Part shown: positions 12,256 through 31,438 of the stretch, one piece after another | Layout of the letters: each line of letters starts with the position of its first letter | Numbering within the stretch: position 1 is the stretch's first letter | The notes under the pieces: generated by a model | What the model was told of the DNA's origin: nothing | The model's input: only the letters and a program-made list of their open reading frames with translations | Database searches by the model: none | Made by a program: the position numbers and the translations under genes | Source of the DNA: Acidimicrobiales bacterium | Lineage (GTDB): Bacteria; Actinomycetota; Acidimicrobiia; Acidimicrobiales; SZUA-35 | Assembly: GCA_020630065.1 (NCBI GenBank) | Contig: JAHDCC010000017.1 | Coordinates: 3,298-59,618, forward strand | Length of the DNA stretch: 56,321 bases | Reading direction: 5' to 3'

Positions 12256-12675
12256 ATGGAATGTGAGTCGAAAGTAGATCTGGTTTCGTCCGATGAGGTG
12301 GCCGAGTTGGTGCGCCGGTTTTACCGGGACGTTGCTCAAGACGACGTGTTGGGTCCGATATTCAACGATGTTGCCCAGGTCGACTGGTCTGAGCATCTGC
12401 CCAAAATAACCGCCTTCTGGAGCCGATTTTTGTTCGGAACTGAAGGGTATACGGGAAACCCATTTCGGGAACATTCAAAGGTGCACGCCCGCAGTCCGTT
12501 TACGCCCGCCCACTTCCAGCGATGGCTCGAGCTGTTTAACGAAACGTTGGACGGTGGCTGGAGGGGTCCAAACGTCGAACGGGTTCGAGTTCTGGCGGAC
12601 AATGTGGCCAAAGTTCACGGTAAACATCTAGGCAGGGAACTGAATCAGTTTAGGTCCGTCGGCGACGATTCCTAA
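12256..12675 (+). CDS. truncated haemoglobin, group III-like
   Basis: A protein of about 139 residues matching group III (P) truncated haemoglobins: VAELVRRFYRDVAQDDVLGPIF in helices A-B, HLPKITAFWSRFLFGTEGYTG in C-E, and HSKVHARSPFTPAHFQRWLELF, which carries the candidate proximal histidine and the conserved WLELF helix, then VLADNVAKVHGKHLG. Family knowledge: group III globins such as Campylobacter Ctb are linked to oxygen and nitric-oxide or nitrosative-stress handling. The frame is open further 5' to 12145, but those residues are not globin-like, so I placed the start at ATG 12256; GTG 12247 is an alternative. No good ribosome binding site precedes 12256, while one precedes the upstream leader peptide, so translation may be coupled. 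It faces the 78-residue membrane protein gene convergently. Confidence 0.8.
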   Translation: MECESKVDLVSSDEVAELVRRFYRDVAQDDVLGPIFNDVAQVDWSEHLPKITAFWSRFLFGTEGYTGNPFREHSKVHARSPFTPAHFQRWLELFNETLDGGWRGPNVERVRVLADNVAKVHGKHLGRELNQFRSVGDDS

Positions 12676-13206: not shown

Positions 13207-14613
13207 TTGAACTTCGAAACCTTAGAAGAAATCTCGACGAATCTGTCTTTGGGGCGCTACTCATCCGAAGAACTCTGTCGAGTCACACTCGAAGGTATCA
13301 AGACAACAAACCCGGTAATCGGGGCCTACAGCGATGTTCTAGACGAGACCGCAATCGCTGAATCGGTGGCCTCCGACAAACGCCGAATAGCCGGTCAGCT
13401 GCGCGGGAAACTTGACGGAGTGCCGATAGCGGTCAAAGACCTCGTCGATACCAGCCCAGCGATTTGTCGCGCAGGGCTAGACGTCTCAGCTACGTATCGT
13501 CCACCTGGTGACGCCAACGTCGTACAGTCACTACGAAACGCAGGTGCCGTAATAATCGGGGTCACAGAAACCGATCGAGGCGCGTTCGGCACAACAACGT
13601 TGCAGGTGGTCAACCCGACAGCTTCAACACAGATAGTCGGCGGGTCAAGTGGAGGATCAGGAGCCGCCGTGGCGGCAGGTCTAGCCTTTGGAGCGATCGG
13701 CACCGACACCGGGGGAAGTATCCGAATCCCTTCAGCATGTTGCTCGATATCCGGATTCAAACCAACGTGGGGTCGCGTCGACCAATCTGGGGTTCGACCC
13801 TTGGCGCACGCCTACGACCATGTCGGTCCGATGGCGAGAAACGTCAGAGGTCTTCAAGCACTGCAAACCGTTATCGACCCCGCCCTTACTCACGAACCAG
13901 CCAACGCTGCCAAGCTGACAATCGGCATCGACGAACAGTACTACCGGGATGCCAACGACCACATGCACAACATGATGTCCCACGTCATCGATACGTTGGA
14001 AAAAGCTGGCCACAAGATGCGGACAGTATCGCTAACCCAGCCAGACGATGTACTCGAATTTCATATGGTCAACGTCTGTAAAGACGCCGCTGACTATCAC
14101 ACCAAACGGTACGCAGATGTATGGACCCGCTATCCCGAAATCGCCCGAGACGCCATCAAATTTGGCCTACAAATCGACCACGACAACTACAGTGCAGCCC
14201 AACAAAAACGAGCAGTAGCTCGTCGACAACTCGACGAGATCTTTGAAGACGTCGACATCATTGTTTCCCCAACGCTCCCAGTCGACGCACCAAACCGAGA
14301 AGCGGAGACGGTCAATGTTGGTGGCATTCCTCGCGGGATTTTGGAAACAACGGTTCGGTACACAGCCTTGTTTAACCAAACCGGCCATCCCGTAGTTTCG
14401 CTACCGGCGCATATTGGCGGACGAGGAACGGCTGCAAGCATACAACTCGTAGGACCCGCAAACGGAGACGGGCGTCTCCTAGCGATCGCTCAGAACATAG
14501 AAGATACTTTGGATGTGCAGATTGACTACCAATCGTTGGTCGAACGTAACAGCGACCGTCTCCAAGCTTGGTCGGCAACAATAGAGTATCTTGGAGATCC
14601 ACATGAACAATAA
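13207..14613 (+). CDS. amidase (amidase-signature family), nitrile pathway
   Basis: A 468-residue amidase-signature hydrolase that should convert the amide made by the adjacent nitrile hydratase to carboxylate and ammonia. The Ser-cisSer-Lys triad is visible: Lys77 in GVPIAVKD, the SS pair at 147-148 in [12 protein letters not shown], and nucleophile Ser171 in [27 protein letters not shown] and [15 protein letters not shown] are also typical. The length is normal for the family. The start is TTG 13207; no better in-frame start is seen and no strong ribosome binding site precedes it. It overlaps the nitrile hydratase alpha gene by 11 nt, so translation is coupled. Amide specificity (aliphatic, aromatic or enantioselective) cannot be inferred. 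Confidence 0.88.
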
Positions 14614-15226
14614 CGACGGTTTAGGTAAATCTGACGGGGAACCCCACACTCACGATCCGTCGGAGAAAGGCGCTGCCCGGCGTGTGCAGGCGTTGGAAGA
14701 GGTAGCAATCGCCAAAGGTCTTGTTGACCCGCAAGCGCTCGATGAGATCATCGAATACTACGAACGTGAGACTGGACCTCGGAACGGAGCGTCTGTGGTG
14801 GCGAAGGCCTGGGTGGAGCCCGACTACAAGACCTGGTTGTTGGGTAACGGTACCGAAGCGATAAATCATCTTGGGTTTAGTGGCTTTCAAGGTGAACACA
14901 TTAAGGTCGTTGAGAACACTCATGAAGTCCATAATGTGGTCGTCTGTACACTGTGTTCTTGCTATCCATGGCCGGTTCTCGGCTTGGCTCCGTCCTGGTA
15001 TAAGAGTTCTGCATACCGATCGCGTGTTGTGCGTGAACCAAGGTCCGTATTGAGTGAATTTGGGTTAGAAGTTCCGGATGAGGTGCGAGTAGAAGTTTGG
15101 GACAGTACAGCAGAAGTGCGCTATTTGGTGTTGCCTCAACGGCCTCCTGGAACTAACGATCTTACGGAAGCGGAGCTGGCCGGGCTCGTCACCCGCAATG
15201 GCATGATCGGGACAGCGCTCGTGTAG
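14603..15226 (+). CDS. nitrile hydratase alpha subunit, cobalt type
   Basis: A 207-residue alpha subunit of nitrile hydratase, which hydrates nitriles to amides in the cytosol as an alpha-beta heterodimer. The metal-claw motif is CTLCSC at residues 115-120: Cys115, Cys118 and Cys120 with Ser119. Thr at position 2 (VCTLCSC) is the signature of the cobalt class, whereas iron enzymes have VCSLCSC (family knowledge). Cys118 and Cys120 are the cysteines oxidised in known enzymes. [15 protein letters not shown] and [17 protein letters not shown] also follow the family. ATG 14603 is preceded by GGAG at 6 nt; a TTG at 14591 is less likely. It overlaps the amidase gene by 11 nt. Confidence 0.95.
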
Positions 15227-15263
15227 CGGAGCCTGATCGTAACGCATAAAAGAAGGTGTACTT

Positions 15264-15926
15264 ATGGACGGAATCCATGACATGGGGGGAATGCACGGTT
15301 TTGGTCGCATCCCAATTGAAGATGACTATGTCTTTGACTCTGACTGGCAACGCCGGTCGTTCGCATTGGCTGAAGCCCTAGCTCCTATCACGCCTTTTGG
15401 CACCGACGAACACCGGCAAGCAATAGAGCGAATCCCACCGAGTGACTATCTTAAGCTTGACTATTTTGAGAAGTGGGCGGTAGCTACCGAATCTCTTCTC
15501 AAGCAAGCAGGACACATCAGTCAGGACGAACTGGATGTAGGGGCGAAACTTTTCCACGCAGACGTTGGCGACAGATCGCCAGTCACGGGTCCCGAATTGG
15601 TCCAAGCAATGAAACAGGGGGTGCCACTGAAGTTCCCAGATGACAGTCAACCCCAACGTTTCTCCGAAGGTGATGTTGTTCTGGTGAGTTCAGAAAGTCC
15701 GTACCTTCACACCCGACTGCCTCGTTACGTTCGAGGGAAAACCGGCTTGGTTGCGAGTGCCGAAGGGGTTTTTGCGTTTCCGGATGCTGCGGTTGGTGGC
15801 GTTGGTGCACCAAGACAGCATTGTTACACCGTCGCATTCTCTAGTGAAACGTTGTGGGGTCGTGAAGCGGAACCAAACGAAGTGATCCACCTAGATCTTT
15901 GGGAGTCATATCTTGAACCAGCTTGA
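15264..15926 (+). CDS. nitrile hydratase beta subunit
   Basis: A 220-residue beta subunit with the canonical N-terminus MDGIHDMGGMHGFGRI and the C-terminal SH3-like domain: FSEGDVVLV, then TRLPRYVRGKTGLV, where the two conserved Arg residues contact the oxidised cysteines of the alpha claw in known structures, and HCYTVAFSSETLWG to the end. AGAAGG lies 7 nt before ATG 15264, giving a 37-nt gap after the alpha gene. The alpha-then-beta order differs from the beta-then-alpha order that I recall as common for cobalt enzymes. Confidence 0.95.
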   Translation: MDGIHDMGGMHGFGRIPIEDDYVFDSDWQRRSFALAEALAPITPFGTDEHRQAIERIPPSDYLKLDYFEKWAVATESLLKQAGHISQDELDVGAKLFHADVGDRSPVTGPELVQAMKQGVPLKFPDDSQPQRFSEGDVVLVSSESPYLHTRLPRYVRGKTGLVASAEGVFAFPDAAVGGVGAPRQHCYTVAFSSETLWGREAEPNEVIHLDLWESYLEPA

Positions 15927-16227
15927 CCGGCATAGCCCCGTCGTGGCAACGGCCATACAAAGTATTCCAACGGTCGAACAAGGTTCACCGTTGTTTGGTG
16001 CGCCGTGGCAGGCGAAGGTATTTGCTTTGGTAGTTTCGCTCGTCGAAACTGGACAGTTTGAATGGGTTGACTTTCAACAGCATCTGGTTGAAGAAGTCGA
16101 GTGCACGACAATTGCTGGAGCCACCGCCGAAGAAATCAGCGAACAGTACTTTGAATGTTGGCTTCGAGCGGCCGAACGTGTTCTGGAAAATGAGGCACTT
16201 GTCGTCGAATCAGACCTAAGAAGATAG
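15913..16227 (+). CDS. nitrile hydratase accessory (activator) protein
   Basis: A 104-residue protein homologous to the N-terminal part of beta subunits: SPLFGAPWQAKVFALVVSLVETGQFEWVDF and EISEQYFECWLRAAERVL. It matches the small accessory proteins (P14K/NhlE-type) that associate with the alpha subunit and help insert cobalt and oxidise the claw cysteines (family knowledge). It starts at TTG 15913 inside the last codons of the beta gene (14-nt overlap). No separate cobalt transporter or CobW-like chaperone is visible nearby. It is the last gene of the plus-strand block; about 70 nt separate it from the convergent pucR-type gene. Confidence 0.85.
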   Translation: MNQLDRHSPVVATAIQSIPTVEQGSPLFGAPWQAKVFALVVSLVETGQFEWVDFQQHLVEEVECTTIAGATAEEISEQYFECWLRAAERVLENEALVVESDLRR

Positions 16228-16296
16228 CTGACATGATTGAAGACTCTACGATATGTGCATCACTTGGTGTTGTCGCCGAGCCGGATCATCTGAAAG

Positions 16297-17811
16297 CTAG
16301 TTCTCCTCGGGAATTCTGCCTTCGAGTTTTAATGCCTGAAGAGCGATCCACAATTTGACTTGCTCAGGAAACAGCAACACATTGCGTCCGGTAAGTTCCT
16401 CAATCAGCCGCAATCGATATCGCATCGAGTTCCGATGAAGAGTGAGGAGTCTCGCCGATTTAGCTACGGAGCCGGATGTTTCCAGGAATACGGTGAGAGT
16501 CTGCATGAGGTCGGAGCCTCGTTCTGTGTCGTGCTCAATGAGCGGCCCCAATAGGCTTTGGGCCATGTCACGTACCGGTAGTTCCCGGTTTACCAGAAGA
16601 AGCGTCGACAGGTTGATTGGTTCGCAGAGGTGGATGCCCGGCTCTGCGTTAAACGTAGCCTCCCTCGCTTCGAAATAGCTAAGTCTCAGACCGGATACTC
16701 CAGAATGTGCTCCGCCTATTCCGACCCGAACATTTGGGTCGACCATGCGTAGTCGTTCGTAGATTATTTGGGTTACTTGATCTATCTCGGCATCGGGTGC
16801 GGCGATTGAAATTAGTTCGTCCTCGATATAGGCGCTTACTATCCGACTTGAATTTGCTCCTAACTCTTTCTGACCCCAAGGCATTCTTCTAATAGAACTG
16901 TCTACGTTAGTGGCCGCAACGATCACGTTAACCGGTTGGGCTAGGTCAACGCCGAATGCGGTCAGGCGACGGGCGGCTGCTTCGTCAGGTAAGCGTTGCG
17001 CCAAGAGGTCTTCGATGACTTGCCCAACAAGTTCGCGGCGTCCATTCAGCTCTGCATGTCGGCGAGAGAGTTCAAGAGAGATGAGAGTTGTAGCGTACGG
17101 AATGGCGTGGATGCTGAAGACTTCGTCGACGATTCGTACGAACAGGTACGCTACTAGTTCGCCGTCGAACCTAATAGGGGCGGTATGGACTTCGCGGGAA
17201 GGGTCGCCGTGTGGTCCGTCGGTTTGTTTGATAGCTTCGGTCGGCCAATCGACAGTTCCTGGGGAACTCGCTAACAACCGGCCGTGGATATCGATCACGG
17301 CAGCGGGTCCGCCGGTTAGCTGATGTAGTCTTTCGATCATCGCTGTGAGGTCGCCGCCTCCAAGCAGGACCGATGCTAGACGTTCGTGTACCGCCAGGCT
17401 GTCGTGGAGTAACTTGAACTGGTCAGCGATAACCGACTCGGCGATAGTTCGAGAAATTTCGATGAAGGGCATTTCGTACGGGACTTCAAAAACGGGAAGG
17501 TCGTACTTGTTGGCTGCGCTAATTAGCTTGGCTGGCATTGTCGAATGATTGAGTCCAGTGCCGAATCCGAGCGAAGATGTATTTGCGTTGGATAGACGTT
17601 CGACGAAACTGTCATAAGCGGCGGAATCCTCGTCTACGAGAGCTGCCCCTGTGGTCAGGACCAACTCATTGCTCGACAAGAATGGAGTTGGGTCTAGGAG
17701 TTCAGTTGGTGCTACCCAGCTAATGTTGCGGTCCAGCTCGTCGTCCTTAGCGGTGTGTAAAACAAGTTGATTCTCGAAGGTGTCGAGGAGTTCTGCAAGG
17801 GTGATGGCCAT
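16297..17811 (-). CDS. PucR-family transcriptional regulator
   Basis: A 504-residue regulator. The N-terminal PucR domain (~residues 1-125) contains DRNISWVAPTELLDPTPFLSS and the ELVLTTGAAL strand. A central GAF/CdaR-like sensor region follows, and a C-terminal PucR helix-turn-helix with SGSVAKSARLLTLHRNSMRY and RLRLIEELTGR. Family members control purine, allantoin and other nitrogen-source genes and respond to pathway metabolites. It sits between the amidase-nitrile hydratase block (convergent) and the transporter-catabolic train (divergent), the classic place for a pathway-specific regulator. The start is ATG 17811, 8 nt from a palindromic region (17819-17836) suggesting autoregulation. The ligand is unknown; an aldoxime, nitrile or amide is a reasonable guess. 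Confidence 0.9.
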   Translation of the reverse strand: MAITLAELLDTFENQLVLHTAKDDELDRNISWVAPTELLDPTPFLSSNELVLTTGAALVDEDSAAYDSFVERLSNANTSSLGFGTGLNHSTMPAKLISAANKYDLPVFEVPYEMPFIEISRTIAESVIADQFKLLHDSLAVHERLASVLLGGGDLTAMIERLHQLTGGPAAVIDIHGRLLASSPGTVDWPTEAIKQTDGPHGDPSREVHTAPIRFDGELVAYLFVRIVDEVFSIHAIPYATTLISLELSRRHAELNGRRELVGQVIEDLLAQRLPDEAAARRLTAFGVDLAQPVNVIVAATNVDSSIRRMPWGQKELGANSSRIVSAYIEDELISIAAPDAEIDQVTQIIYERLRMVDPNVRVGIGGAHSGVSGLRLSYFEAREATFNAEPGIHLCEPINLSTLLLVNRELPVRDMAQSLLGPLIEHDTERGSDLMQTLTVFLETSGSVAKSARLLTLHRNSMRYRLRLIEELTGRNVLLFPEQVKLWIALQALKLEGRIPEEN

Positions 17812-17818
17812 AGGTCAC

Positions 17819-17836
17819 ACTGTACATGTGCACAGT
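17819..17836. promoter_or_regulatory. palindromic site at pucR-like promoter
   Basis: ACTGT (17819-17823) and ACAGT (17832-17836) flank a core containing the palindromes ACATGT and GTGCAC. The site is 8-25 nt upstream of the PucR-type gene start and upstream of the divergent transporter operon. It is a candidate binding site for the regulator itself. Confidence 0.35.
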
Positions 17837-17898
17837 ATTCGACGACAAACTTGGGCGTTTGGTCCTTGAACGAGGGACAGGCGAAATATACGGTTTAA

Positions 17899-17950
17899 GG
17901 CACGGCGCAAGGTGGGCATTTATTTACATAGGTGCGCCACTGTTGGTGCC
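17899..17950. promoter_or_regulatory. nested inverted repeat upstream of ABC transporter operon
   Basis: GGCACGGCGC (17899-17908) is answered by GCGCC (17934-17938) and GTGCC (17946-17950), giving two nested 5-bp inverted pairs around an A+T-rich centre. A possible -10 element (around TATTCATATAC, 17954-17964) follows. It may hold activator sites; the support is weak. Confidence 0.25.
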
Positions 17951-17984
17951 GAGTATTCATATACAACTCTAGGGGGAAGGCCGA

Positions 17985-19310: not shown

Positions 19311-19329
19311 AAACAAGATCGGAAAAGGT

Positions 19330-20196: not shown

Positions 20197-21248
20197 CAGT
20201 TATCGATGTGAACGTCGAGCAAGACTCGACGGTGGAAGTTTCAAAGGGTAAAAACGGTTTGGTAAGGACTGGGGGAGCGGTCGCAGCGCTCGTGGGTGTC
20301 TTAGCTATATTGCCATCGGTCTTGAGCCCATTTAATCTGATATTCGCTGCTCAGATACTTATCTATGCGACGGTTGCCTTAAGCCTTCAGCTTTTATGGG
20401 GGCGAGCGGGCCAGCTGAGTTTTGGTCAGGCAGCATTTTTTGGAATCGGGGCCTACTCATATGCGATAGTAGGCACTCGTTATGACATCGGTGGGTGGCT
20501 GTCCGTCGGCATCGCAGTGGCTGTACCGGTACTTATGGCATTTGTGCTCGGGTACTTTCTTTTCTTTGGAAAGGTTCGTGATGCATACTTCAGCATCGTG
20601 ACGTTGGCGTTCGTCTTGATAGCAAACCAGGTTGTGATTTCATGGCGCTCGGTAACCGGCGGCGATACAGGCTTAACTAGAGTTCCCGGGCTGGTATTGC
20701 CATTCGGTGCGTTTAGCATCGATTTTTCAACCCGAAATGGGCGGTACTATCTGGCTGCAACAGTGCTGTTGGTCGGGTTGCTGGTCTTATTGTGGGTACG
20801 GTCAAGTTCGTTTGGTCTAGTGCTCGAAGCCATTCGAGATGATGAGAACCGGGCAGCATTTCTTGGCTACAACACGTCATGGTATCTCACAGCGGCGTTC
20901 ACCCTTTCGGCTGCGATCGCAGGTCTCGCCGGTGGAATGTTCGCTTCCGTTAGCACGCTGGCTGCGCCAGATATGTTGGATCAGTTTCTTTCAATTCAAA
21001 TCTTGACGTGGGTAGCTATCGGAGGTCGGAACTACCTGGCCGGTGCGCTTGTCGGGACTGTGATAATGCGGATTCTGAGCGATCAGATATCGAGTTTCTT
21101 GACTGACTCTTGGCCTCTAGTAGTAGGCCTGTTCTTCATCATTGTTGTGCTGGCGTTTCCTCAAGGGATTGTCGGCGAACTCACAAGAATCAAGAACCGG
21201 AATGTCGCTCGACTAGGCGGAAGGAGAGCCAATGTCAGCCCCAAGTAA
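20193..21248 (+). CDS. ABC transporter permease, LivM/UrtC type
   Basis: A permease of about 351 residues with LivM/UrtC features: ATVALSLQLLWGRAGQLSFGQAAFFGIGAY, then RDAYFSIVTLAFVLIANQV, and EAIRDDENRAAFLGYNTSWY as the coupling helix. It pairs with the preceding permease in one heterodimeric membrane channel. GTG 20193 overlaps the upstream stop; GTG 20208 is an alternative, and longer in-frame extensions fall inside the previous gene. The C-terminal tail is basic. Next gene overlaps by 17 nt. Confidence 0.88.
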   Translation: MTVIDVNVEQDSTVEVSKGKNGLVRTGGAVAALVGVLAILPSVLSPFNLIFAAQILIYATVALSLQLLWGRAGQLSFGQAAFFGIGAYSYAIVGTRYDIGGWLSVGIAVAVPVLMAFVLGYFLFFGKVRDAYFSIVTLAFVLIANQVVISWRSVTGGDTGLTRVPGLVLPFGAFSIDFSTRNGRYYLAATVLLVGLLVLLWVRSSSFGLVLEAIRDDENRAAFLGYNTSWYLTAAFTLSAAIAGLAGGMFASVSTLAAPDMLDQFLSIQILTWVAIGGRNYLAGALVGTVIMRILSDQISSFLTDSWPLVVGLFFIIVVLAFPQGIVGELTRIKNRNVARLGGRRANVSPK

Positions 21249-21990
21249 AACGTCTCCATCACTTGTGTTGGAATCGGTCACCGTTAAGTTCGGAGGACTA
21301 ACGGTGCTAGACGACCTATCTCTCGAATTCGGGCACTCTCCGATAAGCTCTCTCATCGGCCCGAACGGCGCAGGTAAAACAACCGTATTCAATACCTTCA
21401 GCGGAATTGTTGAACCAACCACAGGTCGTCTGCTACTCGATGGCGAAGATATAACCGGTCGTTCGCCAATCGATATCGCTCGGGCGGGAGTAGTCCGAAA
21501 GTTCCAAGTTCCCACCGTATTCCATGGAATAACGGTTGCCGACAACTTGAAGATAGCGGTCGATGCTCCTAGAGAGCGCAGTCTCAGACAACAAGAAGGG
21601 TCAGCCCAGAGCTGGGAGCCTACAGACGTGGCGAAACAGTTCGGGCTGATGTCGAAGATGAACGCGTTAGCGTCAGAGCTCTCTCATGGCGAACGTCAAT
21701 GGCTTGAGATTGGTATGGCCTTCTTGGCGCACCCCAGATTTCTTCTGCTAGACGAGCCAGCTGCCGGGTTGGGGCCTGAAGAATCAACTCACACAGCTGA
21801 CCTGATCAAGAATATCTCAGAACATTGCAAAACTATTGTTATCGAGCACGACATGAAGTTCATACGCGAACTCGGTGGAGACGTAACGGTTCTACACCAA
21901 GGACAACTTCTACGGCACGGTTCGATGGAAGAGATCGAATCTGACCAGGTCGTTCGAGATGTTTACTTAGGGAGGGAAGCTAATGCTTGA
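21232..21990 (+). CDS. ABC transporter ATPase, LivG/UrtD type
   Basis: A 252-residue ATPase. Walker A is GPNGAGKTT (43-51), Walker B LLLDEPAAGL, the switch His lies in IVIEHDMKFIREL, and the signature region reads ELSHGERQWLEIGMAF. The LSHGxxQWLEIGM form, in place of LSGGQ, is characteristic of UrtD urea/amide transporter ATPases. It powers uptake of the ligand captured by the lipoprotein at 17985. GGAGAG precedes ATG 21232, and it overlaps the partner ATPase gene by 8 nt. Confidence 0.9.
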   Translation: MSAPSKTSPSLVLESVTVKFGGLTVLDDLSLEFGHSPISSLIGPNGAGKTTVFNTFSGIVEPTTGRLLLDGEDITGRSPIDIARAGVVRKFQVPTVFHGITVADNLKIAVDAPRERSLRQQEGSAQSWEPTDVAKQFGLMSKMNALASELSHGERQWLEIGMAFLAHPRFLLLDEPAAGLGPEESTHTADLIKNISEHCKTIVIEHDMKFIRELGGDVTVLHQGQLLRHGSMEEIESDQVVRDVYLGREANA

Positions 21991-22684
21991 GGTAAAAGGT
22001 GTAGTTTCCGGCTACAACAAGATCAAAGTACTCAATGAAGTCGATATCCGGGTTGAACCTGGTGAACGAGTCGTCCTGCTCGGACGTAATGGTATGGGCA
22101 AAACGACGCTGGCGAAAGCGATTGTCGGGTTACTGCCGGTTTGGTCTGGGTCAGTCAATCTAGGTGCCGAGAATATCGATAAGTGGCAGCCATACCGTCG
22201 AACTTGGGAAGGTATTGGGTATGTACCGCAGGGGCGTGGTCTGTTCCCTCAGCTGACGGTTGAAGAGAATCTTGGCATCGGCTTGTACGGTTCGTTGAAA
22301 CGTGAATCGGAGCTTCCCGAATATGTGTTCGAGTACTTCCCTGTTCTACATGATCGTCGAAACCAAACAGCTGGAACATTGTCTGGTGGTGAACAGCAGC
22401 AACTTTCGGTGGGGAGGGCATTAGTGGGTCGACCATCGATCCTTATTTTGGATGAACCTTCCGAAGGCATCCAGCCGAACCTGGTGGCATCGATCGCTGA
22501 CCGTCTCAAGCTATTGGCTACCGAAACAGGTATTGGGGTTCTGCTTATCGAACAAAATATCGACGCGTCGACCCGGTTTGCGGAACGATGTCTGTTCATG
22601 GATAACGGACGTATTGTGCATTCTTGCGGAGTTGAGGACCTAACCACCGAAGACGGATTAGTCGATCGTTTACTCGGCGTCTAG
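21983..22684 (+). CDS. ABC transporter ATPase, LivF/UrtE type
   Basis: A 233-residue ATPase with Walker A GRNGMGKTT (34-42), a form typical of UrtE. IGYVPQGRGLFPQLTVEENL, signature TLSGGEQQQLSVGRAL and Walker B ILDEPSEGIQPN follow. It completes a five-gene importer (binding protein, two permeases, two ATPases). 56 nt separate it from the aldehyde dehydrogenase gene, with no hairpin that would end transcription. Confidence 0.9.
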   Translation: MLEVKGVVSGYNKIKVLNEVDIRVEPGERVVLLGRNGMGKTTLAKAIVGLLPVWSGSVNLGAENIDKWQPYRRTWEGIGYVPQGRGLFPQLTVEENLGIGLYGSLKRESELPEYVFEYFPVLHDRRNQTAGTLSGGEQQQLSVGRALVGRPSILILDEPSEGIQPNLVASIADRLKLLATETGIGVLLIEQNIDASTRFAERCLFMDNGRIVHSCGVEDLTTEDGLVDRLLGV

Positions 22685-22740
22685 ACGCCCCCCTTGTGAA
22701 CAACCAAATCCAACCGTAGCTGAAGTATCTGGAGGAGAAC

Positions 22741-24168
22741 ATGAGAACACAACTATTCATCGACGGAAAATGGGTAAACGGATCTAAAAGCGACTCGTTT
22801 GAAGTGACCGATCCTGCCACTGGTCAAACGATTGCAACTGTCTCGAGCGGTGAACCTAGCGATGCGGTCAAAGCCTGTGATGTCGCCGACCTCGCCCAAA
22901 AACTTTGGGCTCAAACCGCACCTCGAGAACGGGCCGAAATCCTCCGACGATGTTGGGAGGTTCTGTTAAAACATCGAGACGAACTCGCCGAGTTGATCGT
23001 CAGCGAACAGGGGAAATCGATGGCCGACGCTAAAGGTGAGGTAACCTACGCGGCTGAATTTTTCCGTTGGAACTCAGAAGAAGCAGTCCGAATTCACGGC
23101 TCGATCGGTGTTTCACCTTCAGGAGCAAATCGAATGATTGTACGACACCCGCCGGTGGGTGTCGTAGTAATTGTCACGCCGTGGAATTTCCCGGCAGCAA
23201 TGATTACCAGGAAGCTCGCTCCAGCGTTGGCGGCGGGCAACGCTGTAGTGATCAAACCGCCGAAAGAAACCCCACTAACCGCGCTGCGAATTGCTGATCT
23301 TCTATCTGGAGCGGGTGTCCCCGCAGGGCTTGTTAACGTTGTTCCGACAAACGATGCCCGGGCATGGTTCGACGCGGCGGTCGATCATACCGCTACTCGA
23401 ATGGTGTCGTTTACCGGGTCGACCGAAGTCGGTCGATCGTTGTTAAAACGATGCGCAGACCGAGTTCTAAAAACAGTCATGGAACTCGGAGGTAACGCCC
23501 CATTTATTGTGTTTGACGACGCCGATATAGACGCGGCTGTCGTTGGAGCAATGACTGCCAAAATGCGGCATTCCGCTGAAACGTGTACAGCCGCCAACCG
23601 CTTCTTTGTCGAAGCCGGCGTCGTCGACGAGTTCTCCCGAAAACTCGCGGCGGCAATGGCCGACACCACGATTGGTAGCGGGTTCGACCAAACCGTTACC
23701 TGCGGCCCGCTGATCAACGACACAGCGGTAGACCACGTACAAAGTCTGGTGGACGCAGCGGTAAACGCTGGTGCCAAGATTCTTGTCGGCGGTAAACGGC
23801 CCGAAGGTCCGGGGAGCTTCTACGAACCGACAGTTCTCACCTCAGTTGTTGCAGATTCACCTATTGCTCAAACCGAAATATTTGGACCCGTAGCACCAAT
23901 AATTTCCTTCACCGACCACGAGGCCATGATCACAGCGGCGAACGATACCGAAATGGGTCTTATGGCGTACGTTTTCACCGAAGACCTTTCCAAGGGTATT
24001 GCTGTTAGTGAGCGTCTCGAAGCGGGAATGGTCGGCCTAAACCGAGGTGCTGTCTCAGACCCGGCCGCTCCGTTTGGTGGGATGAAACAGTCAGGCCTCG
24101 GACGTGAAGGCGCAAGTGAAGGCATCTACGAATTTTGTGAAACGCAGTACATCGCCACCGGCTGGTAG
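22741..24168 (+). CDS. aldehyde dehydrogenase, succinate-semialdehyde dehydrogenase-like
   Basis: A 475-residue NAD(P)-dependent aldehyde dehydrogenase. Asn149 in TPWNF, general base Glu248 in MELGGNAP and nucleophile Cys282 in AETCTAANRF are present. KLAPALAAGNAVVIKPPKETPL is the cofactor region. The EQGKSMADAKGEV and AANRFFV segments resemble GabD-type succinate/glutarate-semialdehyde dehydrogenases. Its neighbour is a GABA-type class III aminotransferase, so the two may oxidise an omega-amino acid through its semialdehyde to a dicarboxylate. The family's cofactor preference is not readable. A strong GGAGGAG precedes ATG 22741. Confidence 0.88.
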   Translation: MRTQLFIDGKWVNGSKSDSFEVTDPATGQTIATVSSGEPSDAVKACDVADLAQKLWAQTAPRERAEILRRCWEVLLKHRDELAELIVSEQGKSMADAKGEVTYAAEFFRWNSEEAVRIHGSIGVSPSGANRMIVRHPPVGVVVIVTPWNFPAAMITRKLAPALAAGNAVVIKPPKETPLTALRIADLLSGAGVPAGLVNVVPTNDARAWFDAAVDHTATRMVSFTGSTEVGRSLLKRCADRVLKTVMELGGNAPFIVFDDADIDAAVVGAMTAKMRHSAETCTAANRFFVEAGVVDEFSRKLAAAMADTTIGSGFDQTVTCGPLINDTAVDHVQSLVDAAVNAGAKILVGGKRPEGPGSFYEPTVLTSVVADSPIAQTEIFGPVAPIISFTDHEAMITAANDTEMGLMAYVFTEDLSKGIAVSERLEAGMVGLNRGAVSDPAAPFGGMKQSGLGREGASEGIYEFCETQYIATGW

Positions 24169-24205
24169 CCGGAGGTTCGCCGCCAAGATTTAGAAAGAAG
24201 ACACA

Positions 24206-25447: not shown

Positions 25448-25448
25448 G

Positions 25449-26726
25449 ATGTCTAGATCTGCATTGACCGAACAAGCTGTTGCGGACCGAATCGACGGAG
25501 ATCGGCTTTGGAGTCGTCTGATGGCGATGGCTGAAGTAGCGCCAACGCGCAACGGTGGAAGTAACCGGCAGGCACTAAGTGACGACGATGCCGCCGGACG
25601 CACGCTGCTGTTGCATTGGGCGAGGGCTGCGGGTTGCAGCCATGAAATTGACGAAATCGGAAACTTGTTTATCCGGCGAGCTGGCACCGACCCGTTAGCC
25701 GCTCCGGTCTTGGTTGGTAGCCACCTCGACACACAGCCGACGGGGGGACGTTTCGACGGAGTCTACGGTGTGCTCGGAGGCCTCGAAGTAATTGAACGAC
25801 TAAATGACTTAGAGATTGAAACGGAAGCGCCGGTAGATCTAGTTGTTTGGACAAATGAGGAGGGTTCCCGATTCCCCTATTCGATGATGGGGTCTGGGGT
25901 TTGGGCTCAGAAGATAACGTTGAAAGACGCTAGGGCTTTAAAGGACGTCAACGGCATTTCAGTAGGCGATGAACTCGATCGCTTAGGCTGGGCAGGGGCA
26001 AGACCAGCACAGCCTTCATCAGTAAAAGCTGCCTTTGAGTTGCATATTGAACAAGGGCCCATTCTCGAAAGTGAAGAAGTCGAAATTGGTGTTGTAACCG
26101 GCGTGCAGGGCTTGCGCTGGTTCACTTTGGAGTTGGGTGGTTTTCCAGCTCACGCTGGCCCGACCCCGATGGCCGGACGAAAAGATCCGGCTCGTGTCAT
26201 CGCTCGTATTGTCGACAGGGTCTACGAAATGGTCGACCAGTATCGGCCGTGGGGGCGAGCGACGTTCGCTCAGTTCGGTTCCGAGCCGGTCAGTCCGAAC
26301 ACGATCCCGGAGCGGCTTTGGTGCACGCTCGACCTGCGTCATCCCGATCTGGCAACACTTGAGCAGATGGAAATCGAGATGCGTCAAATCGTGAACGAAG
26401 AATCTAGTGTGATCGGGGTGACGGGCAACGTAAGGAAAGAAAATGATTCGACCCCCGTTGTCTTCGACAGTGCGTGTGTTGACATCGTCGAGTCGGTCGT
26501 GTCGAAACTAGGTTTTTCTTACCATCGGATGGTTTCAGGCGCCGGCCACGACGCATGTTATGTAGCGTCGCATGTTCCAACCTCGATGATTTTTGTGCCA
26601 TGTGCTGATGGGTTAAGCCACAACGAAGCCGAGAGCATCACAAAGGAACAAGCTGAACAAGGGGCCAGCGTGCTATTCGGAGCGGTTCGCAGAGCAGCGG
26701 AGAACTCGGGTCTGAGCGGGGCGTGA
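25449..26726 (+). CDS. M20-type Zn amidohydrolase (hydantoinase/carbamoylase family)
   Basis: A 425-residue hydrolase of the allantoate amidohydrolase/N-carbamoyl-L-amino-acid hydrolase/beta-ureidopropionase group. Metal-site segments: VLVGSHLDTQPTGGRFDGVYG, WTNEEGSRFPYSMMGSGVWA and LHIEQGPILE. The dimerisation/substrate segment FPAHAGPTPMAGRKDP and the final GAGHDACYVA plus SHNEAESI also match. The family splits ureido or carbamoyl groups from amino acids, releasing ammonia and CO2. Its place after an omega-aminotransferase fits beta-ureido or N-carbamoyl substrates (inference). ATG 25449 is chosen; a longer frame reaches 25428 inside the previous gene. The stop overlaps the next start (ATGATG context). 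Confidence 0.88.
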   Translation: MSRSALTEQAVADRIDGDRLWSRLMAMAEVAPTRNGGSNRQALSDDDAAGRTLLLHWARAAGCSHEIDEIGNLFIRRAGTDPLAAPVLVGSHLDTQPTGGRFDGVYGVLGGLEVIERLNDLEIETEAPVDLVVWTNEEGSRFPYSMMGSGVWAQKITLKDARALKDVNGISVGDELDRLGWAGARPAQPSSVKAAFELHIEQGPILESEEVEIGVVTGVQGLRWFTLELGGFPAHAGPTPMAGRKDPARVIARIVDRVYEMVDQYRPWGRATFAQFGSEPVSPNTIPERLWCTLDLRHPDLATLEQMEIEMRQIVNEESSVIGVTGNVRKENDSTPVVFDSACVDIVESVVSKLGFSYHRMVSGAGHDACYVASHVPTSMIFVPCADGLSHNEAESITKEQAEQGASVLFGAVRRAAENSGLSGA

Positions 26727-27787
26727 TGGCGATCAGTAGAACATTCCAGATCCAGCGGTATGGAACGCCACCGGTAGAAATCCAGTCCGATACACCGGAA
26801 CCCCTAGGTCACGAAGTCTTACTGAACGTGTCTCACACCGGGGTGTGCCACTCAGACGTACATATTATGGATGGGTACCAAGATTTAGGTGGCGGGGAAC
26901 GCATGAACTTCGCTGATTCAGCAATGCCGCTGCCGTTAACGATGGGTCACGAAATCGTCGGAACAGTGGAAGCTGTAGGCGATAAGGCCGACCAGGCTTT
27001 GTTAGGGCAACGGCGCCTTGTTTTCCCATGGATTGGCTGTGGCGAGTGTGTTTCATGTCAAGGAGAGCAAGACAATCATTGTGAAAAGCCGAGAACCCTA
27101 GGGATCTTTAGCCAAGGCGGTTACGGGGAACATGTTATTGTCCCAAACCAAAAGTATTTGATTGAAATGGATGGCCTAGATCCGGCGTGGACTTGCACTC
27201 TAGCGTGTTCGGGACTGACAGTATTCAGTGCCCTTAGGCAGATCCAGCCCATTAAGCCCAATAGCTATGTCGCCATTGTTGGGATGGGAGGGCTAGGGCT
27301 GATGGCAGTCTCGATTGCTGTAGCGCTCGGCATCAAAAACATCATCGCCTGCGATATCTCAGACGACCGGCTTGCGATTGCCAGAGAACTTGGAGCGACA
27401 GCAGCGCTTAACACGTCAACCCCAGAAGCTGAACACGAACTTGCTGCGCTAGCCAATGGGAGACTCTTTGGAGTAATCGACACGGTCGGTCTTCCTTCCA
27501 CAATTCAGCTTGCTATTGCGGCAACGATGAAAGGCGCTCGCGTAGTCGTGATTGGATTGGCCGGGGGGCGAATAGAACTACCGCTTCCGACTCTCCCGTT
27601 TAACGCTTTGTCGTTGATCGGTACCTATACAGGCTCTCTCGACGAAATGCAGGAGCTGGTTGAGCTAGCGAAAACAGAGACGATTCCGCCTATGCCTATC
27701 GACCTCAAACCATTGGATTGTTTACACGAAACGCTTGAGGCGCTTAGAGCCGGGGAAGTCGTCGGGCGAGTAGTCCTAACCCCTTAA
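26726..27787 (+). CDS. zinc-dependent alcohol dehydrogenase
   Basis: A medium-chain dehydrogenase of about 353 residues. The catalytic zinc ligands are Cys in HTGVCHSDVH, His in LTMGHEIVG and Cys in WTCTLACSG. A four-Cys structural zinc lobe CGECVSCQGEQDNHC is complete, and GMGGLGLMA is the NAD-binding motif, followed by acidic Asp in ACDISDDRL, which suggests NAD rather than NADP. It should interconvert an alcohol with an aldehyde handled by the flanking aldehyde dehydrogenases. ATG 26726 shares its A with the upstream TGA; GTG 26723 is equally possible. Confidence 0.88.
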   Translation: MAISRTFQIQRYGTPPVEIQSDTPEPLGHEVLLNVSHTGVCHSDVHIMDGYQDLGGGERMNFADSAMPLPLTMGHEIVGTVEAVGDKADQALLGQRRLVFPWIGCGECVSCQGEQDNHCEKPRTLGIFSQGGYGEHVIVPNQKYLIEMDGLDPAWTCTLACSGLTVFSALRQIQPIKPNSYVAIVGMGGLGLMAVSIAVALGIKNIIACDISDDRLAIARELGATAALNTSTPEAEHELAALANGRLFGVIDTVGLPSTIQLAIAATMKGARVVVIGLAGGRIELPLPTLPFNALSLIGTYTGSLDEMQELVELAKTETIPPMPIDLKPLDCLHETLEALRAGEVVGRVVLTP

Positions 27788-27825
27788 GTAGCAGCCAACA
27801 TAGCCTTGGATCACAGAGAAACCTC

Positions 27826-29274
27826 ATGGAACCAAAAATATTAGACCGTCGGAAATTTTATATCAACGGATCTTGGGTCGACCCGAGAGAAGCTAGAGAT
27901 CTCCATATTACTAACCCTTCGACCGAACAGATTTGTGCCGTAATTTCTAACGGTTCGGAAGACGACGTAGACTGTGCGGTTGCAGCAGCTCGCTCAGCTT
28001 TCCCGAGTTGGAGTACAACGCCAGTTTCCGAACGAGCTGGTCTCCTTAGTCGGTTATTGGAAATATATTTGGAACGTTCCGATGAGATGGCTTCAGCGAT
28101 TTCGCTGGAGATGGGTGCCCCCATCTCTTTAGCTCGGAAGGCTCAGGTGCCTCTCGGCGAAGCAAACATTCGAAGCTCTATCGATGTGTTGAAATCCTTC
28201 AGTTTCGAGCGGGCGTTAAACGAACACGCAACCAACCAACAAATCATCTACGAACCTGTAGGCGTCTGCGGATTGATTACGCCATGGAACTGGCCGATAA
28301 GTCAGGTGACACTAAAAGTAGTACCAGCGCTTGGTGCTGGATGTGCCGTCATTCTAAAGCCTTCAGAGGTTGCACCATTGTCGTCGGTATTGTTGGCCGA
28401 AATGATTCACGAGGTCGGGTTTCCAGCAGGTGTATTTAACCTTGTGCACGGCGACGGTGTTGGCGTAGGGTCGGGGCTGAGTATGCACCCAGATATCGAT
28501 ATGGTCTCTTTCACGGGTTCAACGAGGGCCGGAGTTGCAGTCTCGAAGAACGCTGCCGAAACGGTGAAACGGGTGACCTTGGAACTTGGAGGCAAGGGTG
28601 CAAACATCATTTTTAGCGATGCTGATGATGAAGCGGTTATCCGAGGCGTTCAGCACTGTTTCCAAAATAGCGGCCAGTCCTGCAATGCTCCGTCGAGAAT
28701 GCTGGTAGAACGAACGATTTATGAAGATGCTCTAGTGACTGCAGGGCAGGTAGCAGAAGCTAGCGTAGTCGATGCTTCTGTCAAAGAAGGTAAACATATT
28801 GGGCCCGTTGCTTCAAAGGTTCAGCACGACAAAATCCAACGCCTTATATCTGTTGGCATAAAGCAAGGGGGTCGGCTTATCGCAGGTGGTTTAGGTCGTC
28901 CCGAAAATCATCCAGTCGGGTTCTTTGTCCGCCCAACGATTTTCGCCGACATCACGCCGGAAATGTCGATTGCCTCAGAGGAGATTTTTGGTCCCGTCCT
29001 CGTGATGATGCCATTCGACACGGAGGAGGAGGCCATTGAAATGGCTAACGATACTCCATACGGGTTGACGAACTATATTCAGACGAGTGACCCGAATAGG
29101 GCGAAGCGTGTCGCTCGAAAACTTCGGTCCGGCATGGTCGTGATGAATGGTGAAGCCCTAGACCCGAGCGCACCATTTGGTGGCTATAAACAATCTGGAA
29201 ATGGCCGAGAGGGCGGAGTTTGGGGACTAGAGGAATTTCTAGAAGTCAAGGCTGTAAGCGGCTGGAGGGCCTAG
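27826..29274 (+). CDS. aldehyde dehydrogenase (second in island)
   Basis: A 482-residue aldehyde dehydrogenase. Asn155 in TPWNWP, Glu253 in TLELGGKGAN and Cys286 in NSGQSCNAPSRM are all in place. The sequence is closer to general betaine-aldehyde/aromatic-aldehyde-type enzymes than the first one at 22741, so the two are not recent duplicates. It lies between the alcohol dehydrogenase and the nitronate monooxygenase; the latter releases an aldehyde or ketone plus nitrite, so this enzyme may oxidise that carbonyl product (inference). Confidence 0.88.
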   Translation: MEPKILDRRKFYINGSWVDPREARDLHITNPSTEQICAVISNGSEDDVDCAVAAARSAFPSWSTTPVSERAGLLSRLLEIYLERSDEMASAISLEMGAPISLARKAQVPLGEANIRSSIDVLKSFSFERALNEHATNQQIIYEPVGVCGLITPWNWPISQVTLKVVPALGAGCAVILKPSEVAPLSSVLLAEMIHEVGFPAGVFNLVHGDGVGVGSGLSMHPDIDMVSFTGSTRAGVAVSKNAAETVKRVTLELGGKGANIIFSDADDEAVIRGVQHCFQNSGQSCNAPSRMLVERTIYEDALVTAGQVAEASVVDASVKEGKHIGPVASKVQHDKIQRLISVGIKQGGRLIAGGLGRPENHPVGFFVRPTIFADITPEMSIASEEIFGPVLVMMPFDTEEEAIEMANDTPYGLTNYIQTSDPNRAKRVARKLRSGMVVMNGEALDPSAPFGGYKQSGNGREGGVWGLEEFLEVKAVSGWRA

Positions 29275-29313
29275 GCGGATGTGCTCGTCGACATTTCCTA
29301 GGGGCACCGAACA

Positions 29314-30315
29314 ATGAAAACAGATCTGACAAGACTACTAGGTATCGACATCCCGATCGTGCAAGCTCCGATGGAAGGAGCTGTAGGTCCATTGCTTGCG
29401 TCTGCTGTAAGCAATGCTGGAGGGTTAGGGACACTCGCCCCGTGGTGCCAACACGAAGATTCTATACGTCAGCAGATACGGCTAACTAAATCGTTCACTT
29501 CAAAACCTTTTGCTGTGAATCTGAACTTGGTCTCATCACAGCAACATCGTCTGGAAGTCTGTTTAGAAGAAGAAGTCCCAGTTATCTCCTTGTTCTGGGG
29601 TGATCCAGGTCCGCTTGCACAGTTAGCTAAAGAAGCTGGAGCAATCGTCATGCATACGGTTGGTTCTGCCTCAGATGCATGTAAGGCCATCGAGTGTGGC
29701 GTGGATATCGTAGTTGCTCAAGGATGGGAATCGGGAGGACACGTAAAGGGAGAAGTGGCTACCATGCCGCTTATCCCAGCAGTTGTCGATGCCGTCGGCG
29801 ATGTTCCGGTCGTTGCCGCTGGTGGAATCGCCGATGGTCGAGGACTAGCCGCAGCTCTTGCTTTAGGGGCGTCAGGGGTGTGGATAGGCACACGGTTTCT
29901 TGCAAGTGAAGAGGCGACCATTCATCCTGACTATCAGGCGAGGGTTGTTGCAGCATCAGAAGACAGCACCGTCCATTTACAAGACCTCTACGACGGTGGA
30001 TGGCCTGACGCCCCCCATAGAGTTATAAGGAACAGTACCGTTTCGATCTGGGAACAGGCAGGTCGACCACAGACAGGCGAGCGTCCGGGACAAAACGACA
30101 TCGTTGCCCACGACAGAAGTCTCGGCGAAATCAAGCGATACCGCTCCTATACCCCAGGTGCCGAAGCAGCTGGCGATATTGAAGCGTTAGCAAACTGGGC
30201 TGGACAAAGTGTTGCCATGGTTGGCAGCGTCAAGCCAGCGTCGATGATAGTCCAAGAAATCCACCAACAAGCCATATCGATTCTGGGTCGTTTGAACACC
30301 GAGACATCTTGTTGA
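29314..30315 (+). CDS. nitronate monooxygenase (2-nitropropane dioxygenase family)
   Basis: A 333-residue FMN-dependent TIM-barrel enzyme of the NMO/NPD family: IPIVQAPMEGAVGPLLASAVSNAGGLGTL at the N-terminus, VAQGWESGGHVKG with the conserved AQG-x-E-x-GGH segment including the catalytic His, and VPVVAAGGIADGRGLAAALALGASGVWIGTRF for FMN phosphate binding. Family members oxidise alkyl nitronates to carbonyl compounds and nitrite; some related proteins act as FMN-dependent enoyl reductases, which the sequence alone does not exclude. Its position directly before the aldoxime dehydratase suggests a nitro/nitronate compound related to the aldoxime. Confidence 0.82.
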   Translation: MKTDLTRLLGIDIPIVQAPMEGAVGPLLASAVSNAGGLGTLAPWCQHEDSIRQQIRLTKSFTSKPFAVNLNLVSSQQHRLEVCLEEEVPVISLFWGDPGPLAQLAKEAGAIVMHTVGSASDACKAIECGVDIVVAQGWESGGHVKGEVATMPLIPAVVDAVGDVPVVAAGGIADGRGLAAALALGASGVWIGTRFLASEEATIHPDYQARVVAASEDSTVHLQDLYDGGWPDAPHRVIRNSTVSIWEQAGRPQTGERPGQNDIVAHDRSLGEIKRYRSYTPGAEAAGDIEALANWAGQSVAMVGSVKPASMIVQEIHQQAISILGRLNTETSC

Positions 30316-30373
30316 TAGTCGTTGCAATAAATGGCGGCAAGTAGTGTTCCATATTCGAAGTGAGAGGTGAGAA

Positions 30374-31438
30374 GTGGGAGAATTAGAACCGGCTATTCCC
30401 GAGCATTTACGAACTGTACGAACACAGCCACTACGTGGTCCCGCCGACTTTGTGCCACAACATGCGTCTCACTCAGCGAGATTTGACCAATCTGTTAAGA
30501 GACTGTCCATCGTCTACGTTGGGGTTCAATATCGAGACGGAGGCGTAGACGCTGTCGCGAGCGCTCTTGCAAAAATAGAACATAGTTTCCAGGGGCCTAC
30601 AGGCCCGAAGCATCATGACCAAACCCGATACGTCGACGAAGCAGGATATGTGAACCATGTCTACGCGGCTTACTGGGATGACGAAGAGTCTCACAAAGAA
30701 TGGTCTGCTGCACAGTCCGATGACTGGTGGCATCCGGATGCTTCTGTCACAGGTGAATACGGATTTTTCAAAGAAGAATACACCCCGTCGGTCGAAGATG
30801 GCGAAACTACGTTCTCCCATCCATGTCCAGAAGGAATTTCGAAGATAGCCGACCACATGAGCGGAGAAACAGACACACACGAATATTGGGGGTCGGCACG
30901 AGACAGGATTCCCAGAGCCCAAACCGAGGATCTTGAACCTGCCGAAGAGACCACGCCCAAAATGTCTGCGAAAAGCTCAAAGGGACGACATGTCAGAGTC
31001 CAACCTAGAGAAAACCTCTGCGTTCTCCGATCAGGTAGCGACTGGTCTGAAACCAAAGGTTCGGAACGTGAGTTCTTCTTGAACAAGGTGTGGCCAGCGT
31101 ATCACAAAGGAATGATTGAAATTCGTGATGAGGGCCTGTCATTCGGGTGTTTCTTTAACCGCGCTATGCGGCATGTAGAACGAGGCGAAGAAGTTGAGAA
31201 GGCATACAGCCTAAGTGCGTGGAACTCTTTGTCGGATCTTGAACGTTGGGTCAAAGCTGACACTCACTTGGCGATATGGGCTGCCGGTATAAAGCACTTT
31301 AAGGCAGCAGGAGATCAAGCCAAATTACGTCTCTACCACGAAATGTTTGTGGTGAAAGCCGCTGATCAACGTTTCGACTATTTCAATTGCCACGACAAGA
31401 CCGGGATGCTCAAAGCAGGGTCCGTCGATACCGGATAG
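30374..31438 (+). CDS. haem-containing aldoxime dehydratase
   Basis: A 354-residue protein strongly resembling OxdA/OxdB aldoxime dehydratases, which remove water from aldoximes to give nitriles using ferrous haem to which the substrate binds through nitrogen. The functional residues known for OxdA (Arg178, Ser219, His299 proximal, His320) appear at matching positions: Arg178 in ARDRIP, Ser220 in LRSGSDW, His298 in DTHLAIW and His322 in LRLYHEM. GVQYR near the N-terminus, HEYWGSARDR, and NCHDKTGML near the end are family hallmarks. GTG 30374 is preceded by GAGAGGTGAGAA. It is the last gene of the train. The nitrile hydratase and amidase that would complete the route lie about 14 kb upstream on the same strand, beyond the regulator. 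Confidence 0.93.
   Translation: MGELEPAIPEHLRTVRTQPLRGPADFVPQHASHSARFDQSVKRLSIVYVGVQYRDGGVDAVASALAKIEHSFQGPTGPKHHDQTRYVDEAGYVNHVYAAYWDDEESHKEWSAAQSDDWWHPDASVTGEYGFFKEEYTPSVEDGETTFSHPCPEGISKIADHMSGETDTHEYWGSARDRIPRAQTEDLEPAEETTPKMSAKSSKGRHVRVQPRENLCVLRSGSDWSETKGSEREFFLNKVWPAYHKGMIEIRDEGLSFGCFFNRAMRHVERGEEVEKAYSLSAWNSLSDLERWVKADTHLAIWAAGIKHFKAAGDQAKLRLYHEMFVVKAADQRFDYFNCHDKTGMLKAGSVDTG

Follow-up and report, generated by a model that had tools for sequence, protein, structure and literature searches.

We examined a 56,321-nucleotide stretch of an Acidimicrobiales genome (assembly GCA_020630065.1, contig JAHDCC010000017.1; hereafter the window), in which an island at positions 13207-31438 encodes a haem aldoxime dehydratase (Oxd), a Co-type nitrile hydratase (NHase), an amidase, an ATP-binding cassette (ABC) importer and an M20 carbamoylase-type hydrolase. 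From sequence comparison, the island is probably an import-coupled aldoxime-nitrile-amide module through which small aldoximes, nitriles and amides would serve as a nitrogen source and perhaps also as a carbon source (probability approximately 0.6). Its gene content, order and spacing, and the linkage of its core genes across phyla, were seen directly. The core set (importer, M20, Oxd, amidase and NHase) was found in all six relatives whose Oxd is at least 50% identical to that of the window. The importer and M20 genes are thus linked to oxd, NHase and amidase in every such case, indicating that these non-nitrile genes belong with the pathway.

Core genes of the island accompany Oxd in two phyla

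Relatives of the window Oxd were collected by an alignment-based scan of one genome per species (84,980 species), which confirmed 339, of which the best 80 were kept. An earlier pattern scan of genome contigs with the window Oxd alone had given 34 matches and no relatives. Searching plasmids by tblastn returned 34 records with Oxd relatives, 12 of which were opened. Gene presence was scored by blastp against the open reading frames (ORFs) of the kept loci, and all counts refer to the stretches compared; 15 of the 75 loci with lower identity span less than 20 kb.

All five kept genome loci with an Oxd at least 50% identical carried the importer, M20, amidase and both NHase subunit genes (nthA and nthB), and none carried a nitrilase. 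Together with one plasmid they make up the six full-set relatives, five from Alphaproteobacteria and one from Actinomycetota: Aminobacter sp. SS-2016 plasmid pANY103d, Mesorhizobium plurifarium, Aestuariivirga, a Hyphomicrobiales metagenome-assembled genome, Rhizobiales Y(2018) and Dactylosporangium sucinum. Their NHases share the Co-type motif with that of the window. By contrast, at the 75 loci with an Oxd 39-46% identical, M20, amidase and NHase (nthA) were each found in 0/75 and a nitrilase in 73/75; four or more importer components occurred at none of them and three at a single locus. Fisher's test on this comparison (6/6 versus 0/75, p = 3e-9) takes no account of relatedness, and we draw nothing from it.

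The Oxd of pANY103d is 56% identical to the window Oxd and is the best plasmid match, the next being 38%. The genes there run M20, LysR, substrate-binding protein (SBP), two ATPases, two permeases, Oxd, amidase, nthA, nthB and accessory protein, flanked on both sides by conjugation genes. Gene order varies among the full-set clusters, as does the regulator: LysR is annotated in Aminobacter and seen by eye in the other alphaproteobacterial clusters, Dactylosporangium has a LacI-like gene (by eye) and the window has PucR. On pANY103d a methyl-accepting chemotaxis protein gene follows the NHase genes (L032 24505-26652), and its product may sense the same compounds in taxis.

In a quick, midpoint-rooted tree of 39 rows, the window Oxd and the six full-set Oxds formed one clade (SH-like approximate likelihood ratio support, SH-aLRT, 100). 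Within it the Dactylosporangium Oxd grouped with the alphaproteobacterial Aestuariivirga/Rhizobiales pair. The Dactylosporangium permease (65% identical) and M20 (75%) instead paired with those of the window, its importer being 59-67% identical overall, and the alphaproteobacterial permeases and M20s formed groups of their own. The amidase is 49-52% identical to the window's in five of the six relatives and 34% in Dactylosporangium. The differing affinities of the Dactylosporangium Oxd, importer, M20 and amidase indicate that the set has been kept while its components were exchanged. Double recruitment of the M20 was considered: the M20 tree separates two cluster groups, a single clade is not rejected by an approximately unbiased (AU) test (p = 0.152), and we make no such claim. 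M20 copies tested from both groups fall in the same NCBIfam subfamily.

Layout of the island and proposed route

The window is one stretch of a genome of 3.70 Mb in 81 contigs, and the affinities of the island's best matches, like the mycothiol-type protein encoded at 32820-33449, suggest an actinobacterium. In the island, two head-to-tail gene runs flank a minus-strand PucR gene. The left run (amidase-nthA-nthB-accessory protein) has intergenic gaps of at most 37 nt. The right run comprises 12 genes in the same direction, from SBP to Oxd, with gaps of at most 58 nt; the five-gene importer is followed by an aldehyde dehydrogenase (ALDH), a class III aminotransferase, M20, a zinc-type alcohol dehydrogenase (Zn-ADH), a second ALDH, a flavoprotein of the nitronate monooxygenase (NMO)/FabK family and Oxd. 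Chance adjacency of the island genes was set low. The PucR gene is divergent from the importer run, with 173 nt between them. The family matches listed here confirm the gene inventory (amidase, NHase, PucR, importer, ALDHs, aminotransferase, M20, ADH and Oxd) of a preliminary description made from the sequence alone.

13207..14613, + strand: amidase (amidase-signature family), predicted to convert amide to acid and NH3; PF01425, 276 bits
14591..15226, + strand: NHase alpha, Co-type motif VCTLCSC; TIGR01323, 293 versus cut-off 250; an alternative in-frame ATG start is possible at 14603
15264..15926, + strand: NHase beta; TIGR03888, 200 versus cut-off 152
15913..16227, + strand: NHase accessory protein (metal insertion, by family); TIGR03889, 64.6 versus 46
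16297..17811, - strand: PucR-family regulator; PF07905, PF13556, PF17853
17985..19310, + strand: SBP, UrtA/AmiC-like; PF13458
19276..20196, + strand: importer permease 1, UrtB/LivH-like; PF02653
20103..21248, + strand: importer permease 2, UrtC/LivM-like; PF02653; start uncertain, the listed ORF overlapping permease 1
21232..21990, + strand: importer ATPase 1, UrtD-like; TIGR03411, 260, below the cut-off of 304
21983..22684, + strand: importer ATPase 2, UrtE-like; TIGR03410, 255, below the cut-off of 286
22741..24168, + strand: ALDH1, succinate-semialdehyde dehydrogenase (SSADH)-like, local addition; PF00171
24206..25447, + strand: class III aminotransferase, gamma-aminobutyric acid (GABA)/acetylornithine type, local addition; PF00202
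25428..26726, + strand: M20 carbamoylase-type hydrolase, conserved core member; TIGR01879, 384 versus 204; NF006769, 527 versus 452
26723..27787, + strand: Zn-ADH, local addition; PF00107, PF08240
27826..29274, + strand: ALDH2, local addition; PF00171
29314..30315, + strand: flavin mononucleotide (FMN) flavoprotein, NMO/FabK family, local addition; PF03060
30374..31438, + strand: haem Oxd; PF13816, 252.5 bits versus gathering score 25

We propose that the five-protein importer would bring the substrate in. Family membership and conserved residues predict that Oxd would then convert aldoxime to nitrile, the NHase nitrile to amide and the amidase amide to acid and ammonia. More tentatively, the M20 hydrolase might release extra nitrogen from a substrate with an N-carbamoyl or ureido group, either taken up through the same importer or derived from what is imported. 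PucR, lying between the divergent runs, probably switches both. The ALDHs, aminotransferase, ADH and flavoprotein may form a local carbon-side extension that plausibly feeds aldehydes and an omega-amino acid, by oxidation, into central metabolism.

The island has a G+C content of 52.6% and its flanks have 54.3 and 55.2%, a shift compatible with transfer yet too small to serve as an argument. Promoter and terminator scans gave a yield no higher than in shuffles; an Rfam search gave no match and a tRNA search found none.

Oxd, nitrile hydratase and amidase

Among solved structures the best matches of Oxd are the aldoxime dehydratases 3a15 and 3w08, and the alignment (E 4e-70) spans its length. 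Residues E144, R178, S220, H298 and H322 align with E143, R178, S219, H299 and H320 of 3a15, whose positions were counted by hand on the printed alignment, minus 20 for the tag. Of these, H298 corresponds to the haem-ligand His and E144 to the mechanistic Glu. The PF13816 match and this alignment bear out the preliminary description, which had called the protein a haem Oxd with its key residues in place. In OxdA, Ser219, Arg178 and His320 have stated mechanistic roles according to passages of PMC5391958. Matches to PF13816 were found in 9 of 395 genomes of a class sample, six of them over the cut-off and two over 100 bits. The island shows Oxd to be present in this actinobacterial class, though rarely among the genomes sampled.

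The NHase alpha, beta and accessory proteins all exceed curated cut-offs. The motif CTLCSC marks an NHase as Co-type and is also present in the NHase of all six full-set relatives. The best solved chains for the alpha subunit include Co-type NHases, named Co-containing. A Co-type NHase with its accessory protein, as first described, is thus upheld by the motif and by TIGR01323, TIGR03888 and TIGR03889.

For the amidase, the nearest NCBIfam models were AtzE and indoleacetamide hydrolase, both far below cut-off, and the nearest solved chain was biuret hydrolase. These matches bear on a biosynthetic role for the island, for example in making indole-3-acetic acid from indole-3-acetaldoxime, a route discussed for such enzymes or clusters in passages of PMC8955678 and PMC3137637. 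We consider such a role highly improbable, as the presence of an importer, an M20 and dehydrogenases speaks for uptake and catabolism and the amidase scores 244 against the indoleacetamide hydrolase cut-off of 532.

The importer and its likely substrate

The importer genes run SBP-permease-permease-ATPase-ATPase. A Peripla_BP_6 protein, two BPD_transp_2 permeases and two ATPases in a single run make up what we take to be the five-component branched-chain/urea/amide (HAAT) ABC importer. All five NCBIfam Urt cut-offs were missed: UrtA (TIGR03407) 219/493, UrtB 219/250, UrtC 221/296, UrtD 260/304 and UrtE 255/286. Of the original term 'urea/amide-type importer', the five-gene importer therefore stands and 'urea-type' is a resemblance only. 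Solved relatives of the SBP are an 'extracellular ligand-binding receptor' (8tg1), urea-binding proteins and AmiC. A predicted structure of the SBP had a mean predicted local distance difference (pLDDT) of 50, too poor to use.

Importer searches scored the best few candidates of each genome. At E<=1e-50, permease 1 matched in 1 of 247 class genomes, its own, which holds three copies: in the window, on contig C75 (75% identical) and on contig C9 (40%). At E<=1e-70, a single genome matched among 150 of the Dactylosporangium family, and a single one among 296 of the phylum, the latter again its own genome. In the sampled genomes, the three copies at 65% or above (window, C75 and Dactylosporangium) all lie beside an Oxd.

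The C75 copy belongs to a second Oxd cluster of this genome (approximately 207.9-220 kb of the contig; L001, L012, L013), whose Oxd is 27% identical to that of the window. Oxd is followed there by an ArsR-like gene (by eye), three binding-protein genes, the importer, an amidase and a nitrilase-family gene. Its importer is of the window's lineage (permeases 75 and 68%, ATPases 76 and 72%). Proteins of 477 and 479 amino acids, 58% identical to each other, are encoded on C75 (L013 1366-2799) and C9 (L139 11547-12986). Each has an AmiC/UrtA-kind binding domain after an N-terminal stretch of approximately 125 residues, with no signal peptide evident by eye. The stretch is SRPBCC-like by eye, unconfirmed, and that of the C75 protein had no Pfam match. 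Both genes have importer genes and, by eye, an ArsR-like gene as neighbours, and the proteins look like cytosolic amide or nitrile sensors.

In G318, Agrobacterium tumefaciens and Bradyrhizobium barranii an importer of another lineage adjoins Oxd; in A. vitis one lies approximately 6 kb from Oxd on the other strand. No such importer was found at the other 8 of the 12 opened plasmid Oxd loci, barring one or two weak component matches (L035), nor at six further same-phylum Oxd loci (L179-L184), where L181, L183 and L184 gave weak component matches.

Several observations weigh against an import-coupled module. The importer was absent from most Oxd loci examined. The best plasmid matches to the permease, three Shinella records at 48.6%, lie beside amidases without Oxd, and the C9 importer adjoins an amidase on a contig where no Oxd was found. 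Importers of this kind thus accompany amidases without Oxd, and the imported compound may be an amide rather than an oxime. The six relatives are few independent cases, because L046 and L054 are near-duplicates and the five alphaproteobacterial clusters are mutually related. NHase genes also occur by Oxd outside the core set: L189, outside the 80 loci (Oxd 43%, nitrilase), has NHase-like genes approximately 6 kb away, and plasmid Oxds at 35-37% and L190 have amidase and NHase without M20. The alphaproteobacterial M20s carry Gly where that of the window carries Asn, at a position we take to be substrate-binding, so the M20s may differ in substrate. Finally, Oxd scores 289 bits against a cut-off of 600 for the OxdA equivalog model NF050090; it belongs to the family but is no OxdA equivalog by the NCBI rule.

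L189 and L190 came from a sample of 141 genomes of one family, in which Oxd relatives at E<=1e-60 were found in four: the known full-set case, L048, L189 and L190. In L190 amidase and NHase adjoin Oxd. Neither L189 nor L190 has an M20, nor an importer beyond single weak matches.

A competing possibility is that the island is a classical oxd-NHase-amidase cluster beside which lie an importer for amides and urea in general and a ureide hydrolase unrelated to it, as several nitrogen-scavenging units with a shared regulator and no shared substrate. Besides the C9 and Shinella importers, it is favoured by the resemblance of the importer to UrtA/AmiC families and by the amide/urea importer encoded with formamidase (fmdCABDEF) described in passages of PMC10781810. 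However, in the sampled genomes every close copy of the window importer lies beside Oxd, and importer and M20 stay with the Oxd clade across two phyla despite differing gene lineages. We therefore hold this possibility to be distinctly less likely than an import-coupled module, though it is the most serious competitor.

A bolder version of the import-coupled module would have the importer dedicated to aldoximes or nitriles, and the core set marking an undescribed class of substrate with an aldoxime (or nitrile) and a carbamoyl or ureido group, in at least two phyla and on at least one conjugative-typed plasmid. This we regard as doubtful. To our knowledge, the natural substrates of most bacterial Oxds are not settled; the recurring importer and M20 offer two handles on them, a binding protein to screen and a hydrolase of known chemistry.

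The M20 hydrolase and the five local additions

The window M20 is 75% identical to the Dactylosporangium cluster copy and scores below the AllC model (TIGR03176, 233 versus 598). It is also 52% identical to a hydrolase of a Burkholderia pyrimidine-degradation cluster. Its conservation in the core set suggests that a carbamoyl or ureido compound belongs to the same diet.

The remaining genes of the right run tell a different story. Both ALDHs, Zn-ADH, the aminotransferase and NMO were found beside Oxd in none of the six full-set relatives. At the 75 lower-identity loci, aminotransferase-like genes (approximately 30% identical) occurred in seven and a Zn-ADH-like gene in one, and the NMO/FabK flavoprotein was absent from all 75. 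As a group, the five local additions were not found at any other Oxd locus examined.

The matches of the individual additions are broad. ALDH1 scores below the SSADH model (TIGR01780, 538 versus 646). The closest solved chains of the aminotransferase are GABA aminotransferases, with the GABA model TIGR00700 missed (359 versus 507). Relatives of the aminotransferase at 58-69% exist elsewhere in the class; nine of their neighbourhoods, four of them shortened by a contig end or by the stretch chosen, held no other island gene except weak ABC-ATPase matches (three) and a weak amidase match (one).

The flavoprotein matches PF03060 with 196.5 bits (cut-off 28). Among solved chains, FabK proteins and putative NMOs are equally near to it, ahead of all others, and the FabK model is missed (228 versus 453). 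The original label 'nitronate monooxygenase' is thus sound as a superfamily match and too specific as an enzyme identity, since FabK-like enzymes are indistinguishable from NMOs by these matches. Flavoprotein relatives that we looked at stood alone or on contigs other than that of Oxd. Among 102 records searched, two further actinobacterial loci, L182 and L184, had an NMO-family gene near Oxd, which is too little to build on. Both (L184 at approximately 7.7-15 kb, L182 at approximately 2.7-9.8 kb) are nitrilase-Oxd loci of the same phylum with an amidase-like match, and L184 also shows AraC-like and P450-like genes by eye.

The preliminary description had raised a single pathway in which all island genes could serve the breakdown of one molecule, bearing an oxime or nitro group at one terminus and an amino or ureido group at the opposite terminus. 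An example would be an omega-ureido or omega-amino aldoxime taken through beta-alanine or GABA to a dicarboxylate. The twelve genes in one tight run speak for such a pathway, as do the similarity of M20 to the Burkholderia hydrolase, the presence of GABA aminotransferase and SSADH among the best matches of aminotransferase and ALDH1, below curated cut-offs, and the NMO relatives in L182 and L184. Against it stand the absence of the five extra genes from the full-set relatives, the unrelated settings of near relatives of the aminotransferase and the lack of linkage to Oxd of the NMO relatives looked at. Of the proposed island, importer and M20 thus belong with oxd, NHase and amidase in relatives, whilst the inclusion of ALDHs, aminotransferase, ADH and NMO is unsupported by them. 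We judge a single pathway unlikely.

The flavoprotein might alternatively be a reductase that keeps the Oxd haem ferrous rather than an NMO. Oxd catalysis requires ferrous haem (passages of PMC11568032), the flavoprotein gene lies directly upstream of oxd, and its family match is common to FMN oxidoreductases such as FabK. Nevertheless, its absence from the six full-set relatives and from 75/75 other loci makes a reductase role improbable.

Comparison with known systems

Linkage of oxd, NHase and amidase is known from Rhodococcus and Pseudomonas, as the preliminary description had stated and passages of PMC8955678 corroborate. The likeness of those clusters to the island lies in Oxd, NHase and amidase being encoded together. 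In them the Fe type, accompanied by a P47K activator, prevails among the linked NHases, with one Co-type in strain YH3-3 (same passages). The window differs in its Co-type motif, TIGR03889 accessory protein, ABC importer and M20, and an Fe-type NHase with P47K activator was not found in it. Of two reviews of the field, PMC8955678 has no instance of 'transporter', 'ABC' or 'permease' in its main text and PMC11568032 none of 'transporter' in its own; in passages of PMC3137637 'ABC transporter' appears in another context. The gene set was not found named among the matches listed from partial texts of open-licence literature, which is weak evidence of absence.

Other systems share parts of the island. 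The six full-set clusters have its whole core and lack the ALDHs, aminotransferase, ADH and NMO. Plasmid clusters of Agrobacterium and Pantoea dispersa (oxd-amidase-NHase-CbtAB) have a Co-type-motif NHase like the window, and an importer is also present on the Agrobacterium plasmids, adjoining Oxd in A. tumefaciens and lying 6 kb off in A. vitis. These clusters differ in having CbtA/CbtB genes and no M20, with Oxds 35-37% identical, and P. dispersa lacks the importer. Methylophilus fmdCABDEF likewise places a binding-protein-dependent importer next to an amide-hydrolysing enzyme, but with three importer subunits, a formamidase and no Oxd or NHase named in the passages of PMC10781810. The oxd-nitrilase clusters of Bradyrhizobium/Variovorax type also encode Oxd with a nitrile-converting enzyme; in these a nitrilase replaces NHase and amidase (73/75), M20 is absent (0/75) and importer components are rare (1/75).

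As the importer-plus-hydrolase set recurs by Oxd in unrelated bacteria, the island can be recognised as a variant form of a known pathway and is not wholly new. We regard this form as new for its combination of probable import coupling, a Co-type NHase and an M20 hydrolase with the known oxd-NHase-amidase linkage.

Neighbouring genes in the window

Just upstream of the island, a truncated-haemoglobin-family gene (PF01152) lies at window positions 12145-12675; its listed TTG start may be too far upstream. A protein of 1054 residues (7973-11137), with no Pfam match at E<=1e-5, adjoins glycosyltransferase genes. Positions 32820-33449 encode a mycothiol-type protein (TIGR03083, MDMPI_N).

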